Part shown: positions 27,329 through 32,707 of the stretch, piece after piece | Layout: each line of letters begins with the position of its first letter | How positions within the stretch are numbered: the first letter of the stretch is position 1 | NCBI RefSeq assembly: GCF_030758295.1 | Contig: NZ_CP132335.1 | Span: 434,001 to 498,000 of the forward strand | Source of the DNA: Pararhizobium sp. IMCC21322 | GTDB lineage: Bacteria; Pseudomonadota; Alphaproteobacteria; Rhizobiales; GCA-2746425 | Direction of reading: 5' to 3' | DNA: 64,000 bases | The notes under the pieces: generated by a model | The model's database searches: none | What the model saw: the letters and a program-made list of their open reading frames with translations, nothing else | Told to the model about the DNA's origin: nothing | Position numbers and translations under genes: made by a program

Positions 27329-28372
27329 CTAATACTTCCCGTCACGCGCTTCAAAATGGGTGGGCTTGTCCAGACTTCTGCCACCGCGGATCAGCCAGTC
27401 CGCCTGCCAGTCAATCATATCTTCCAGCGAGATCGCTAAAGGACCAAAGGCTTTCATGGAGGCGCTGGCATCATTCAGCCATGCAGTTGGCGCTTCCGTA
27501 CCGACAATATTTGCCGGCTTATCAAATCGTTTTGCAAAGGCCTCGGCAATGTCCCGCACGGCAATGACATGCTCGCCAGTGACGTTGATCGGGCTGGTTG
27601 GCGTGGTGGTCTGTGCCAGGCTGCGCAGGGCGCGGGCATTGGCCTCTCCCTGCCAGATCAGGGTCACATGGCCCATCGACACATCGATAGGTTCTCCCGC
27701 CAGCACCTTTTGCGCCAGATCGTGCAGCACGCCATAACGCACATCAATGGCGTAGTTCAGCCGGAACAGCCGCCCCGGCGTGTTGTGAACCACACTCATA
27801 TGCTCAAACATGCGCTCGCGGGCAACGCAGGACCAGGCATAATCGCCGGGCGGCGGATTGGGAGCCACGTCTTCCGTTGGCCCGGATAGGGCATCAACAG
27901 GCCAGAACGGATAAACACACCCGGTCGAAAAGGCGATGATGCGGGAACTGGCATAACGTTCTGCAACCAGCGCCGGGCAAAGAGCATTCATGGCCCAGGT
28001 CAGGTGTTCCGCGCCGGAAGAGCCGAATTTGCGGCCTGCCATGAACATCACATTTTCCGCATCCGGCAAGGCCGCAACCGCATCACGATCAAGCAGGTCA
28101 GCGGCAATGGTTTCAATGCCATCGCGCTCCAGAGTGTCGCGCAGTCCGCTTTCGGAAAAGCGTGCAACAGCAATGACTTTCCGATCCTCTGCCATGGCAT
28201 TGCGGGCAAGCCGCGCAAGGCTGGGACCCATTTTACCACCGGCACCAAGAACAATCAGATCGCCAGAGGTCTTTGCCAAATCAGCGCGCAGTGCAGCGTC
28301 CGGCGCGGCAAGGGCGGCTTCAAGGGCGGCTTCATCCATGAAAGGTCCGCGCGCCGCATTATCCTGGGTCAT
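27329..28372 (-). CDS. NAD-dependent epimerase/dehydratase-like (extended SDR) protein
   Basis: The 347-residue protein has a Rossmann glycine motif LGAGGKMGPSLARL at about residues 43-56 after an N-terminal helical tail, then FSTGCVYPF and DYAWSCVARERMFEH. The catalytic Tyr is present, but the usual Lys four residues later is replaced (YAWSC), so the mechanism may differ or the Lys may come from elsewhere. I chose the ATG at 28372, with GGGAGGACCTG directly upstream. It leads a two-gene operon with the DHDPS-family gene, behind a TetR-type operator. Confidence 0.78.
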   Translation of the reverse strand: MTQDNAARGPFMDEAALEAALAAPDAALRADLAKTSGDLIVLGAGGKMGPSLARLARNAMAEDRKVIAVARFSESGLRDTLERDGIETIAADLLDRDAVAALPDAENVMFMAGRKFGSSGAEHLTWAMNALCPALVAERYASSRIIAFSTGCVYPFWPVDALSGPTEDVAPNPPPGDYAWSCVARERMFEHMSVVHNTPGRLFRLNYAIDVRYGVLHDLAQKVLAGEPIDVSMGHVTLIWQGEANARALRSLAQTTTPTSPINVTGEHVIAVRDIAEAFAKRFDKPANIVGTEAPTAWLNDASASMKAFGPLAISLEDMIDWQADWLIRGGRSLDKPTHFEARDGKY

Positions 28373-28401
28373 CAGGTCCTCCCAAAGGGCCAATTTCATA
28401 A

Positions 28402-28417
28402 GTAACCAAATGGTTAC
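28402..28417. promoter_or_regulatory. Likely TetR operator upstream of the epimerase/aldolase operon
   Basis: GTAACCA-AA-TGGTTAC is a perfect dyad with 7-bp arms and a 2-bp spacer, 30 bp upstream of the epimerase start and between that operon and the TetR gene. Its partner is at 26159-26174. Confidence 0.75.
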
Positions 28418-28468
28418 AATAGAGATGTCAAAACCTGTGTGTCAAGCCGTGAACCCGTTTTGGTGAAG

Positions 28469-29131
28469 TCAGGCGCGCAGAAAACATGTGATGACAGCCA
28501 CCACATGTTCACGCCGCCGATCGAGCGCATCCGGTGATGCCAGTTCCTGATTGAAAATAACCGACAATGTGTGCCGGTTCGACATGTGAAAGAAGCAGAG
28601 CGACGCGATCGTAATATACAATTCAACCGGATCGACATCGGCGCGCAACACACCATCAACCTGCCCGCGTTTCAGCACATCCTGAATCTGTGCCACCAGA
28701 GGTGAGTGCATCTGCTGAATCTTGGCAGACTTTTTCAAATGCCGCGCCTGATACATGTTCTCGATATTGAGAAGGGTCAGAAAATCCGGGTGTTCAAAAA
28801 AATGATCATAACTGAACCGGACCAGCCGCTCGATGGCCTGCATCGGCTGCAGATGATCCAGCTCAAGCGTGCGTTCGCCGGTCCGGATCTGCGCGTAGGT
28901 GGATTCCAGAACCGCCAGAAACAGCTCTTCCTTATTGCCGAAGTAATGGTAGAGCATGCGCTTATTGATGGCAGCCCGCGCCGCAATTTCATTGACGCTT
29001 GCGCCGGAAAACCCGTGCGCCACAAACTCATCCGTCGCCGCTTTCAAAATAGATCTGCGACTGCGCTCCGGATCGCGGGTCGCGGTCTGTTGTTTGCCAG
29101 GCCGTTTGCTGACCTGAGAAGGCGTCTGCAT
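28469..29131 (-). CDS. TetR-family transcriptional regulator
   Basis: The 220-residue protein has a basic N-terminal tail and a TetR DNA-binding domain at about residues 23-70 (SILKAATDEFVAHGFSGASV, then NEIAARAAINKRMLYHYFGN). The C-terminal ligand domain is helical and unassigned. It is transcribed in the same direction as the epimerase operon, 96 bp upstream of it, and is the obvious candidate for binding the two GTAACCA dyads. The inducer is probably an intermediate of the sugar-acid pathway. Confidence 0.9.
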   Translation of the reverse strand: MQTPSQVSKRPGKQQTATRDPERSRRSILKAATDEFVAHGFSGASVNEIAARAAINKRMLYHYFGNKEELFLAVLESTYAQIRTGERTLELDHLQPMQAIERLVRFSYDHFFEHPDFLTLLNIENMYQARHLKKSAKIQQMHSPLVAQIQDVLKRGQVDGVLRADVDPVELYITIASLCFFHMSNRHTLSVIFNQELASPDALDRRREHVVAVITCFLRA

Positions 29132-29230
29132 GTCTGATCTACCCTTACCGGTCTGCGCGGAACAGATGGTCAGGTCTATAGCCGACAGCGCCGGGAAATC
29201 AAAATGCCGGTATCCGCTAAAGTAGAAAAA

Positions 29231-29554
29231 TCAGTTAAACTGCTTGAAAAAAGGCCTGCGCGGTTCCCGGCAAATGAAAAGCGCACACATGCCACTTTTG
29301 GTCGGCACGCTGTGGCGCGTATGCACATTGGAAATCGGGCATTGATAATTGGGCGCGTAGAATTTGCGATAGACGTGACGGTTCTTGGTGTTCATCACCA
29401 CCGTACCTTGTTGATCGACAAAGGCACGCACGCCTGCACAGGTATAATTCTGCGTATTGGGACGCGCTTCAGCGGCACCACCGGACAAGGCCATAATGGT
29501 GAAAAATGCACCCAGAAAGGTGAGGAAAGGTGTGATGGATCGGGTCAAATTCAT
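29231..29554 (-). CDS. Small secreted protein of unknown function
   Basis: The 107-residue product starts with a signal peptide (residues 1-30, ending GGAAEA) and continues with a short basic domain containing four Cys (YTCAG, YQCPI, GMCAL, FICRE), suitable for two disulfides in the periplasm. A VFVDQQGTVVMNTK-like strand pattern (AFVDQQGTVVMNTK) is visible. I do not recognise the family. It stands alone between the TetR gene and the stem-loop islet. Confidence 0.55.
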   Translation of the reverse strand: MNLTRSITPFLTFLGAFFTIMALSGGAAEARPNTQNYTCAGVRAFVDQQGTVVMNTKNRHVYRKFYAPNYQCPISNVHTRHSVPTKSGMCALFICREPRRPFFKQFN

Positions 29555-29581
29555 ATGCGGATCTCTGATATGCTAATTTTA

Positions 29582-29638
29582 AAAACGCCCATATCATAAT
29601 GTAAACAGGAAATTTTGTCAGAAATACGCGGGCGTTTT
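29582..29638. repeat. 9-bp inverted repeat upstream of the small secreted gene
   Basis: AAAACGCCC at 29582-29590 and GGGCGTTTT at 29630-29638 are perfect complements separated by 39 bp. The pair lies 28-84 bp upstream of the secreted-protein start and could be a looped regulatory element. Confidence 0.5.
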
Positions 29639-29723
29639 GAGTGCCCCTAATCGGATAAGTGATAGGAAATCGCAGAATTTGTGAAAAACCTTTGCGTGAG
29701 GCACTAGCAGGATCTATGATTCA

Positions 29724-30044
29724 CAACACGTCGGGTGTTGGAATCCCGACGTGTTGCTCTAAGTTTCCTTTTGGAAGGGAATCCCAATATGTGTGTGGCA
29801 AATCAGGCGTCCCTGAACTGCCTTATCCCCTACGGGACTGCCGGATGTTGGCCTAGGCCTAGGCCAACATCCGCGATGGTGGTTATATAGGCACGGTGTG
29901 CTCCACAACTGGCGGAAACACTCTTTCCGCCCTTTAGTCCGCTTGCACGGATTACACGAAATAGACCGTCTATTTCGTGATCAACCGACAAAGCCAATTT
30001 GTCGGAGATTTAGAGACGTAGGCGTATTTTCGCCTACGTCTTTA
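29724..30044. other. Array of unrelated stem-loops
   Basis: No gene is seen here; instead the DNA is packed with perfect or near-perfect inverted repeats of different sequence. They are: 29724-29756 (12-bp arms, 9-nt loop); 29842-29873 (32-bp palindrome, no loop); 29911-29931 (8-bp arms); 29935-29954 (7 bp with one G-T); 29955-29979 (12-bp arms, 1-nt centre); 29985-30005 (8-bp arms); 30011-30044 (11-bp arms plus 3 weaker pairs, then a T-rich tail). The last five follow one another with gaps of 0-5 nt. This suggests a structured RNA, with the final hairpin as its terminator, or a protein-recognised DNA array. Confidence 0.7.
29842..29873. repeat. Perfect 32-bp palindrome
   Basis: The arms run outward from a central AGGCCT: the left half is CGGATGTTGGCCTAGG and the right half is its exact reverse complement, with no spacer. 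Long perfect palindromes are unstable in replication, so persistence suggests recent origin or selection. Confidence 0.9.
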
Positions 30045-30086
30045 TTACTTTCGGCGTTTCTAACTGCATCGACGCTTTCTAAGCCG

Positions 30087-30428
30087 CTAGGTAAGAGTCC
30101 ATTTAGTCCTTCCCGCAGCATCTGAAACAGTCTTCAGCGAACCTCTATCTTTGCAACGAGATAGGAAGGTTCGAAACGCCCCATTGCTCATTTTTTCATC
30201 CGAAGACATCAGTTCCCTATACATCCGCGAACTACTCATACCTCTATTCCCAGCAGTGCTTAGCATTGGGACAATTTTGTCATCGAAAAAAGCTCGATCA
30301 AGTCTTGTGTGCCGGAGGGGATCAGCTTTCTGAATTTCTGATTCAACCAACCGGATTTCGAGTTCCAATAGCTTTTGCATTTCCAAAAGGCGCATTTTCC
30401 GATCTTTGAGTTCGTTCAGTTTTAGCAT
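30087..30428 (-). CDS. Coiled-coil plus winged-helix-like protein of unknown function
   Basis: The 113-residue product has an N-terminal amphipathic helix rich in Leu, Glu and Lys (residues 1-35, LKDRKMRLLEMQKLLELEIR) that probably forms a coiled coil. Residues about 45-113 have the helix-helix-helix-hairpin pattern of a winged helix (FDDKIVPMLSTAG, SSRMYREL, NGAFRTFLSRCKDRG, LKTVSD..GRTKWTLT). A small dimeric DNA- or RNA-binding protein is the best guess. It lies between the stem-loop array and the long hairpin, so those may be its targets. The region looks more AT-rich than its neighbours, which suggests transfer. Confidence 0.5.
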   Translation of the reverse strand: MLKLNELKDRKMRLLEMQKLLELEIRLVESEIQKADPLRHTRLDRAFFDDKIVPMLSTAGNRGMSSSRMYRELMSSDEKMSNGAFRTFLSRCKDRGSLKTVSDAAGRTKWTLT

Positions 30429-30771
30429 CGATTCTCAACTAGTGCTTCACAATTGGACTAAACGTAACAGAGATGCCATAAAAAAAATAGGAAATCTGCA
30501 GAAAATAAAGGCCCGGCAGATTGCGTTTGTATTTTATATGTGATAGATGCTTCTTTCTTCAGCATCTATCACATATAAGTATTATTTAAATCTTGCTGAT
30601 TTTCTCATTTTCCTTTGTCGATGCAGCTATGCCCCTAGCCGCTAAGTTGATTCGCGCACACCGGAAGCCTAAAACAGTTACATTCTTCTCTCAATTGTGG
30701 CTATTGCGAGTTGAATGTTTAATGCGATATAGGCACGGTATTCGCGACCAGATTTGAGATGAAGGTGTTTA
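30429..30771. other. Intergenic region containing a long hairpin
   Basis: No gene is seen in these 343 bp. They contain a weak inverted pair AATCTGC/GCAGATT near 30493-30522, the 18-bp hairpin at 30534-30578, and the second copy of the 13-bp direct repeat at 30727. AAGG at 30762 is the likely ribosome binding site of the GT2 gene. Confidence 0.6.
30534..30578. repeat. Perfect 18-bp-arm hairpin
   Basis: TTATATGTGATAGATGCT and its exact reverse complement are separated by a 9-nt pyrimidine loop (TCTTTCTTC). No poly-T tail follows on either strand, so it is not an ordinary terminator. Confidence 0.9.
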
Positions 30772-31557
30772 TTGGTGCTTGTTTCACACCCTCTATCAAT
30801 ATTCATAATCACGCTCAATGAAGCGGACCGGTTGGGCGCAACGTTGGAAGCCGCCCGGCAATTATCTGATGATATTGTGGTGGTGGATAGCGGGTCGACA
30901 GACAACACGGTTCAGGTTGCAAAAGATCTTGGTGGGCGGGTCATTCACAATGACTGGCAGGGCTTTGGCCCGCAAAAACGCTTTGCCGAAGAGCAATGCC
31001 GCCATGACTGGCTGCTTAATCTGGATGCGGATGAAGTTTTGAGCGATCAGGCAATAGCGGAGATCAAAGCGCTGTTCGCCAACGGCGCGCCACCAAAGCC
31101 GGGCTATTATCTGAATGTGGTTACAATCTATCCCGGCAAGACAAAGCCAAGACCCATTGCGGATTTTTACCGCATCAACCGGCTCTATGACCGACGTGAA
31201 ATGCGCTACTCAGACAGCCGCACCGATGACCGGGTGATCGATGACGGGCAGACACTGGGTCAGATCGACGGCCCGGTCTGGCATTACAGTTTCAGAGATA
31301 TTTCCGACATTGCTCCAAAAATGGAAACCTATGCCCGGCAACAAATTCATGAAAAGGCGCATAAACGCACCGTAGCAGGTCTGAGGGCACGGATGCTGAT
31401 TGAATATCCGGTCAATCTCATGCGCTATCTGTTTGGACGCAGACACATTACCGGCGGTGTTCAGGGCGTTCGCTATGCTCATGAAATTGCCAAATCCAAA
31501 AGAAAGCGCCTAAAAATTTTTCTCCAGGCGCTTCAGAGTGGAAAAGACCATGAATGA
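30772..31557 (+). CDS. Glycosyltransferase family 2 (LPS core type)
   Basis: The 261-residue protein has the GT-A fold signatures of the WaaE/KdtX-like group: SIFIITLNEADRLGATLEA, DDIVVVDSGSTDNTVQVA, GFGPQKRFAEEQC and the DxD-like WLLNLDADEVLS. It transfers a sugar from a nucleotide donor, probably to lipopolysaccharide core on the inner face of the membrane. The start is either TTG 30772 or GTG 30775, both behind AAGG at 30762. It overlaps the alcohol dehydrogenase gene by 8 bp, so the two are co-transcribed. Confidence 0.85.
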   Translation: MVLVSHPLSIFIITLNEADRLGATLEAARQLSDDIVVVDSGSTDNTVQVAKDLGGRVIHNDWQGFGPQKRFAEEQCRHDWLLNLDADEVLSDQAIAEIKALFANGAPPKPGYYLNVVTIYPGKTKPRPIADFYRINRLYDRREMRYSDSRTDDRVIDDGQTLGQIDGPVWHYSFRDISDIAPKMETYARQQIHEKAHKRTVAGLRARMLIEYPVNLMRYLFGRRHITGGVQGVRYAHEIAKSKRKRLKIFLQALQSGKDHE

Positions 31558-32707
31558 GTTCACTTTCAACACAGCCAAGAGCATCAGATTTGGGTCCGGC
31601 CAGCTGGACTTGTTGGGGGACATCACCAAAACACTGACGGATGACAAGCTACTGTTGATTACCGACCCCGGTATGATGGCCACCGGCATCGTGGACCGCG
31701 CCATAAATATCCTCGGGCAAAGTGGGTTCGAAATTGTTCTGTTCAATGAAGTCGAGGCTGACCCGCCGGAAGTTAAAATCCTGCAGGCCGTGGAGCTTGC
31801 AACAAGTCAGAAAATTGGATGTGTTATCGGCCTTGGGGGCGGATCGTCACTGGATGTTGCAAAGCTCGTTGCCCTGCTGGCCGTTGGTAAGGAAAAGCTC
31901 AGCGATATCTACGGGGTGGGCAATGTCAAAGGCCCGCGATTGCCTCTTATTCTTGTACCCACGACGTCCGGTACAGGGTCTGAAGTCACGCCCATTTCGA
32001 TTGTGACCACTGGAACAAATGAAAAAATGGGTGTTGTTTCGCCCATTATCCTGCCGGATATTGCAGTTCTTGATCCCGTTTTGACAATCGGACTGCCACC
32101 ACACATCACTGCGGCGACCGGGATTGATGCAATGGTTCACGCAATTGAGGCATACGCATCGGCCAATCCCAACAACAATCCTATGTCGCGCATGTTGGCC
32201 GAGAAGGCTTTGACGTTGACGGGCGGCTCTCTTCTCACCGCCGTGCAGGATGGGCAGAACCTGACAGCAAGATCTGACATGTTGCTGGGCTCATTGCTGG
32301 CGGGGCAGGCCTTTGCGAATTCTCCCGTTGCAGCGGTGCATGCGCTGGCCTATCCGCTTGGTGGGCGTTTCCACATACCACATGGATTGTCGAATGCGCT
32401 GGTTTTGCCGCACGTGTTGCGCTTCAACGCCGAATTGAAGCCTGAGCCTTATGCGGAACTTGCCCCATTTGCATTTGCTGAATTGGCACAAATTGACCCG
32501 CAGAAACGCGCCAATGCCTTCATCGAAAAATTGGTTGAATTGTCATGTGATTGTGGACTTCAACAAAACCTGCGGCAGATGGGAATAGCGCAGGAGGTCT
32601 TGCCGGACCTTGCAGATGACGCCATGAACCAGTCACGTCTGCTGGTCAACAATCCGCGCGCTTTAACGCGCGAGGATGCATTGGCGATTTATAGCAGTGC
32701 GTTTTAG
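31550..32707 (+). CDS. Iron-type (group III) alcohol dehydrogenase
   Basis: The 385-residue cytosolic oxidoreductase has the NAD-binding block GCVIGLGGGSSLDVAKLVA, the PTTSGTGSEVTPIS motif and metal-ligand regions TGIDAMVHAIEAY and HALAYPLGGRFHIPHGLSNAL. These give the Asp/His/His/His divalent metal site. It oxidises or reduces a short alcohol or aldehyde; the substrate is not predictable. The ATG at 31550 lies within the end of the glycosyltransferase gene. Confidence 0.9.
   Translation: MNEFTFNTAKSIRFGSGQLDLLGDITKTLTDDKLLLITDPGMMATGIVDRAINILGQSGFEIVLFNEVEADPPEVKILQAVELATSQKIGCVIGLGGGSSLDVAKLVALLAVGKEKLSDIYGVGNVKGPRLPLILVPTTSGTGSEVTPISIVTTGTNEKMGVVSPIILPDIAVLDPVLTIGLPPHITAATGIDAMVHAIEAYASANPNNNPMSRMLAEKALTLTGGSLLTAVQDGQNLTARSDMLLGSLLAGQAFANSPVAAVHALAYPLGGRFHIPHGLSNALVLPHVLRFNAELKPEPYAELAPFAFAELAQIDPQKRANAFIEKLVELSCDCGLQQNLRQMGIAQEVLPDLADDAMNQSRLLVNNPRALTREDALAIYSSAF

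Follow-up and report, generated by a model that had tools for sequence, protein, structure and literature searches.

TIGR and CRISPR arrays are made up of tandem small structured units, and the RNA arrays of type III toxin-antitoxin systems (ToxI) are made up of near-identical tandem repeat units that lie beside a toxin system. Type III systems are mentioned in PMC12373285, which also describes an upstream non-coding RNA of about 100-130 nt in AbiF/AbiD (Abi_2) systems. HEC-09, a candidate defence system with an NYN protein that is modelled in PADLOC, is a further point of comparison. Here we analyse a window of 64,000 nucleotides from Pararhizobium sp. IMCC21322 (NZ_CP132335.1, positions 434,001 to 498,000; all coordinates without a locus name are those of the window), in which an array of hairpins at 29724-30044 resembles each of these systems in part. 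Like TIGR and CRISPR arrays it consists of tandem small structured units, but it has no repeated unit motif and no cas or tas gene was recognised by eye nearby. The tandem structured units also recall ToxI; unlike those of ToxI, the hairpins of the window are unrelated to one another, and the segment that carries them yielded no toxin gene. The likeness to AbiF/AbiD lies in four relatives of the locus, where an Abi_2 gene faces a palindrome-regulator pair of the kind described below and a structured-looking stretch (by eye) lies between them. The window itself has no Abi_2 gene (tblastn of two Abi_2 proteins against the insert and the window), and its ~320 nt and about eleven unrelated hairpins contrast with the ~100-130-nt RNA of that paper. 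Similarly, NYN partners in the same family match the HEC-09 model PDLC04163, whereas the window has no NYN gene and its region 28140-32120 (L001) lacks the exact pattern of the RNA candidate found beside such genes. No Rfam family matches the stretch of the Abi_2 loci, or the array at the gathering score, and the window's only Rfam match is a tRNA.

The array comprises six perfect hairpins with 8-16-bp arms and about five weaker ones, about 10-11 in all. Hairpin 1 (29724-29756) is a perfect inverted repeat with 12-bp arms and a 9-nt loop. It is followed by an interrupted hairpin of 4+5 bp at 29797-29822 (in both the MFE and the centroid fold), a weak hairpin at ~29826-29837 (MFE fold), a 32-bp perfect palindrome with 16-bp arms and no centre at 29842-29873 (inverted-repeat scan) and a second interrupted hairpin at 29879-29907 (MFE fold). 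Next come a perfect hairpin with 8-bp arms and a 5-nt loop (29911-29931), a hairpin of 7 bp that includes one G-T pair when read on the plus strand (29935-29954), one with perfect 12-bp arms about a 1-nt centre (29955-29979), another perfect one with 8-bp arms and a 5-nt loop (29985-30005), and the last hairpin (30011-30044), which has 14 bp with one G-T pair (11 bp perfect) and a T-rich tail, and is terminator-like on the plus strand. Two further stems of just 3-4 bp lie 5' of 29790 in the MFE fold, which is a chain of about eleven hairpins because the weaker ones fill most of the gaps between the perfect ones. The original prediction had described seven inverted repeats, five of them back to back, in a stretch free of genes. 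All seven are present (the six perfect ones and the 7-bp hairpin with one G-T pair), and the run of five occupies 29911-30044. Its view that the hairpins are unrelated in sequence and not copies of one another holds as well, as a repeat comparison across the array found no direct-repeat family in common. The open reading frames bear out the lack of genes: the nearest real candidate starts at 30087 on the minus strand, and a 75-aa GTG ORF (29898-30125) that spans the right end of the array was judged spurious.

The array is real and far beyond chance. It has six non-overlapping perfect stems of at least 8 bp; 300 dinucleotide shuffles averaged 0.07 such stems and never exceeded 2, and none of them gave a perfect stem of at least 10 bp, of which the array has four. 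Across 464 kb of the same genome (the 64-kb window and 20 stretches of 20 kb), the runner-up cluster within 350 bp has three hairpins of 8-9 bp. The fold energy is -154.3 kcal/mol for the plus strand (z -10.6) and -156.3 kcal/mol for the minus strand (z -11.8), and for neither strand did any of 100 shuffles fold as well.

The array lies within a segment (29566-30788) that stands where the sister species G001 and G002 have a divergent intergenic spacer of ~185 bp, as blastn and a sequence comparison against their loci L021 and L022 show. In both species a small ORF and a glycosyltransferase gene are divergent neighbours with ~180-186 bp between them; homology with the window ends at 29565 and restarts at 30789 (G002) or 30802 (G001). 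As ~1.2 kb of unrelated DNA stands in for the sister species' spacer, the array is judged foreign, and by this comparison the whole segment is foreign relative to the two sister species. At the same site G003 has a different ORF, LysE-like by eye, and in G004 the small ORF and the glycosyltransferase gene are located on separate contigs. To the left of the segment are a TetR regulator gene and the small ORF; to the right are genes for the glycosyltransferase, an alcohol dehydrogenase and a DPBB-domain protein, ordinary chromosomal genes like the left neighbours, and farther right is an 818-aa ORF that is gyrB-like by eye. A direct duplication between the segment ends scored 39 against a shuffle maximum of 60 under one scoring, and was borderline under another, where its 34.2 fell short of the highest of 500 shuffles (35.4; mean 22.8). 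Terminal inverted repeats matching at 11 of 12 nt (29696/30439) were rejected, being about at chance level for 1.2 kb by our own arithmetic. The foreign origin of the region was absent from the original prediction, as were a longer hairpin at 30534-30578 and the small gene that lies between it and the array.

This gene (30087-30428, minus strand), the only evident one of the segment in the list of ORFs, encodes a 113-aa protein with no match in Pfam, PADLOC or PHROG. The best of five AF2 single-sequence models (pLDDT 83, pTM 0.50; 65-70 for the other four) predicts a long N-terminal helix, assigned as a coiled coil, and a C-terminal winged helix; its top Foldseek match is the Fur DNA-binding domain 2fu4 (E 4e-4). 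The hairpin at 30534-30578 has perfect 18-bp arms and a 9-nt centre and lies 105 bp upstream of the start codon, within the range of the family described below (arms of at least 14 bp, 80-110 bp upstream). The segment thus pairs a gene for a small, predicted coiled-coil and winged-helix protein with a long upstream palindrome, an arrangement that we found in common at 16 loci. Separately, the sequence ATAAGTGATAG at 29655-29665, about 58 bp before the array, is identical to the palindrome arm at 10 of 11 positions. It is the best match to the arm in the 64 kb outside the palindrome and may be due to chance.

A single-sequence search of 397 genomes with the 113-aa protein found L017 (E 7e-6), L018 (E 0.002) and L019 (E 0.003); the last, in which the longest hairpin arm is 9 bp, was left out of the family. 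The L018 protein led to three plasmid copies, as did that of L048, and profile searches added loci from genomes, MAGs and one viral contig. The first profile searches returned the query itself alone or no match. The L018 protein found no relatives in phages, the window and L017 proteins found none in plasmids and phages, and neither these two nor the A4 query found any in viral contigs; within the eight genomes of its own family, the L017 protein matches itself alone. The window protein is a member of the A4 family (family alignment A4). Its scores with the A4 profile are not independent, because it is a seed row of that alignment; its link to L017 and L018 was made before any profile was built.

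At each of the 16 loci of the family, the longest perfect inverted repeat in the 260 bp that precede the start codon is a palindrome with 14-27-bp arms that ends 82-110 bp short of that codon. By comparison, 4 of 1000 random 260-bp stretches reach arms of at least 13 bp, these being drawn from the window's own genome and so mostly coding DNA, not the upstream regions of other genomes. Fifteen of the loci were accepted on protein score. L055 was admitted partly on its palindrome, which is therefore not independent evidence, and the number of independent cases is about 13-14, as L035 and L044 are near-identical and L033 and L034 are close. The arms vary among loci, with an outer AATATGRTA common to eight; between L033 and L034 one pair is changed on both sides and two tip pairs are lost. 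A TTGAC or TTGAA box stands just outside the palindrome on the gene side in 15 of the 16 loci, the exception being the window, which has TTGCGT at this position (the box is a common, non-defining trait of the family). In 10 of 15 loci scored for hexamer pairs, the top-scoring pair is such a box followed, after 17 nt, by a TA-initial hexamer inside the palindrome that is a weak match to TATAAT. With box and hexamer so placed, the palindrome resembles an operator that overlies a promoter directed outward, and we infer that this may be its role across the family. No description of such a regulator-palindrome family was met in the portions of the literature that our search covered.

Sixteen loci gave weak profile matches (L038-L041, L055-L063 and L084-L086); L055, the one admitted to the family, is among them. 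Among the seven that were measured, with start codons placed by eye, none has arms of at least 13 bp at the family position: L085 has a 12-bp-arm hairpin 145 bp upstream and L056 a 13-bp-arm hairpin 7 bp upstream. The scan of eight others was limited to arms of at least 10-11 bp. Upstream of the weak match at L041:1456-1896 (minus strand; E 9e-4), at a distance of 108 bp, is a hairpin with 10-bp arms; this locus is possibly a distant family member. Seven loci (L033, L034, L042, L043, L044, L051 and L052) show by eye another short inverted repeat immediately 5' of the start codon, consisting of GTTGCA or GTTTCA, about 10 nt, and TGCAAC or TGAAAC; this is perhaps a second, putative regulator site.

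A toxin or defence gene lies beside the palindrome-regulator pair in 12 of the 16 loci, and such a neighbour is thus common, though we do not use it to define the family. It is an NYN-domain gene facing the pair in six and an Abi_2 gene in four; one locus has a TacA antitoxin with an acetyltransferase, and one a ParE-like toxin gene. No such neighbour was seen at the remaining four (the window segment, L037, L043 and L017, the last on a contig that stops 100 bp beyond the gene). In L046:1627-2488, the genes for a TacA1-type antitoxin and a GNAT acetyltransferase face the palindrome-regulator unit. In L055:1196-2351, the pair stands between the ParE-like toxin gene and a small ORF (antitoxin-like by eye, with no Pfam match), as if it had been inserted into a toxin-antitoxin operon. 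A reading frame that is uvrB-like by eye adjoins the pair in both L055 and L017. In L043:2227-2652, a 141-aa ORF with no Pfam match lies upstream of the family member in the same direction, and is possibly another type of effector.

Both of the NYN partners scanned match the HEC-09 model PDLC04163 (E 4e-46 and 7e-45). Directly 5' of the NYN genes we observed a two-hairpin RNA candidate on the minus strand (L044:2752-2784, L047:2750-2782, L048:2752-2784, L051:1279-1311, L052:1276-1308 and L035:2737-2769). All 17 of its base pairs are kept in five distinct sequences. Four of these pairs have changed on both sides, with slid controls yielding none. A T-run follows the candidate in four of five aligned copies, with L035 carrying the candidate too. 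Its exact pattern was found in 9 of 90 loci, all of which are NYN loci or longer stretches of the same sites, and it has no match in Rfam.

The array itself has no DNA relatives in 60 other genomes of the genus and order, where the best non-self match (E 0.006) falls inside the 113-aa gene and the remainder is short noise, or in 72,556 plasmid and 50,697 phage records. The patterns of three of its hairpins found no relative in viral contigs; the lone match, L091, lies in a lysozyme-like ORF without a hairpin cluster and was taken as chance. The array shares no more than words of up to 11 nt with the RNA stretches of the NYN and Abi loci. An equal array is absent from the available flanks of the other 15 family loci, and the link between array and regulator thus rests on one case. 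Nearest to it are clusters of five 7-8-bp hairpins at L035:4825-5117 and L044:4840-5132, perhaps a candidate origin of transfer, which take in the start of a mobQ relaxase gene (annotated in L035) and the sequence immediately 5' of it, and groups of four short hairpins in L048 and L089. The array is a single case, set in a coherent family of cassettes.

Our best explanation, to which we give a probability of roughly 0.35 as a whole, takes the array to be the non-coding part of a cassette gained by horizontal transfer and to encode a multi-hairpin RNA on its plus strand. The 113-aa protein would be a regulator that binds the palindrome and controls an outward transcript; in the window copy, in which the protein effector is absent, the array would provide the RNA of the cassette. 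Transcription would run on the plus strand from ~29725, just before hairpin 1, to the terminator-like last hairpin at ~30050, and would yield a ~320-nt chain of independent hairpins. Such an RNA may act through its double-stranded shape and not through any one sequence, as a decoy or guard for an RNase or an RNA-binding protein. The proposal fits the covarying RNA candidate before the RNase gene of the NYN loci and the structured-looking stretch before the Abi_2 gene.

Three features carry the case for RNA: the terminator-like end, a raised G+C in AT-richer foreign DNA (51% in the array against 44% in the 113-aa gene and 39% upstream of the gene inside the segment), and this RNA habit of the family's RNase loci. 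A terminator scan of 29400-30800 on both strands gave four entries, against 1.0 in shuffles, and two of the four are the last hairpin; the U-rich tail noted in the original prediction is thus matched by a terminator-like score on the plus strand. On the other side, no good promoter was found. A weak promoter-like pair, TTGCGT-17-TATGAT (29692-29720, plus strand; 8/12 matches), lies just 5' of hairpin 1, and is not evidence for a promoter because such scores occur about 5 times per kb. The promoter scan does not include this pair and gave no plus-strand promoter for the array; with hexamer-pair scoring as well, there was no signal above background. Both strands fold equally well, and the G-U pairs (five if the plus strand is transcribed, six if the minus) favour neither. 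Two of the hairpins have centres of 0-1 nt, which are commoner in DNA palindromes than in RNA hairpins, and as no homologue of the array was found there is no covariation to draw on. The earlier suggestion of a multi-hairpin RNA or a structured DNA array is thus partly supported: the architecture and the unrelated hairpins behind it stand, but the promoter signal, at background, and the strand-neutral G-U counts establish neither form.

We consider it tentatively possible, nearly as likely as the RNA reading, that the array acts as palindromic DNA. The winged-helix protein could bind to it or be titrated by it, or it could be a single-strand structure from the source element, such as an origin of transfer, a single-strand origin or a single-strand promoter. 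The stems are mostly Watson-Crick and equal on both strands, centres of 0-1 nt occur among them, and the adjoining family palindrome is itself a DNA palindrome that, with its TTGAC or TTGAA box in 15 of 16 loci, is operator-promoter-like. The five-hairpin cluster of L035 and L044 stands at the start of mobQ, where an origin of transfer is expected. Against this reading, the array hairpins lack the arm sequence of the window palindrome, the sole near match (ATAAGTGATAG at 29655) being outside the array, and inspection by eye of the ORFs at 24-36 kb of the window picked out no relaxase, Rep or recombinase.

Two further explanations appear improbable. The array sits between convergent directions, and a run of terminator-type hairpins could shield the minus-strand gene from plus-strand transcription, in line with the terminator-like last hairpin; a single terminator would suffice for this, however, and in the terminator scan only the last of the about eleven hairpins is followed by a T-rich tail. 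It is just as doubtful that the array is a mutational by-product, an unselected foreign spacer whose quasi-palindromes were perfected by template switching. That process could also yield the palindromes of L033 and L034, which stay paired while their tips change, but six strong hairpins in 321 bp speak against it, with no cluster above three in 400 kb of the genome. We regard a remnant of a protein effector (NYN, Abi_2, GNAT or ParE) or of its RNA as very unlikely: relatives of the cassette carry such genes, and one NYN protein matches 30015-30218 by tblastn (25.8 bits, E 0.001), slightly better than the top score among 200 mononucleotide shuffles (24.6), but an unrelated slice of the window scores higher (26.6 bits), the match is antisense to the 113-aa gene, and none of eight partner proteins matches the full window at E 0.01.

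Returning to the RNA reading, a broader form of it, which also leaves room for a DNA element, is rather unlikely as a whole. In this form the array would be what a member without an effector puts out, within a new class of mobile cassettes for defence or toxins in which a small regulator and a long, sequence-variable palindrome stand before interchangeable effectors (NYN RNase, Abi_2, TacAT and ParE-like), here beside a multi-hairpin RNA or DNA element of an undescribed kind. The array may be a multi-hairpin RNA or a DNA element that lies outside every Rfam model. Firmer than its role is the regulator family, with a near-perfect palindrome at a fixed distance whose sequence varies while its pairing is kept, and the same regulator is met again next to toxin or defence effectors of four unrelated kinds. 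The family thereby offers a way to find new effectors and RNA guards, and makes palindromic control with a variable sequence open to test.
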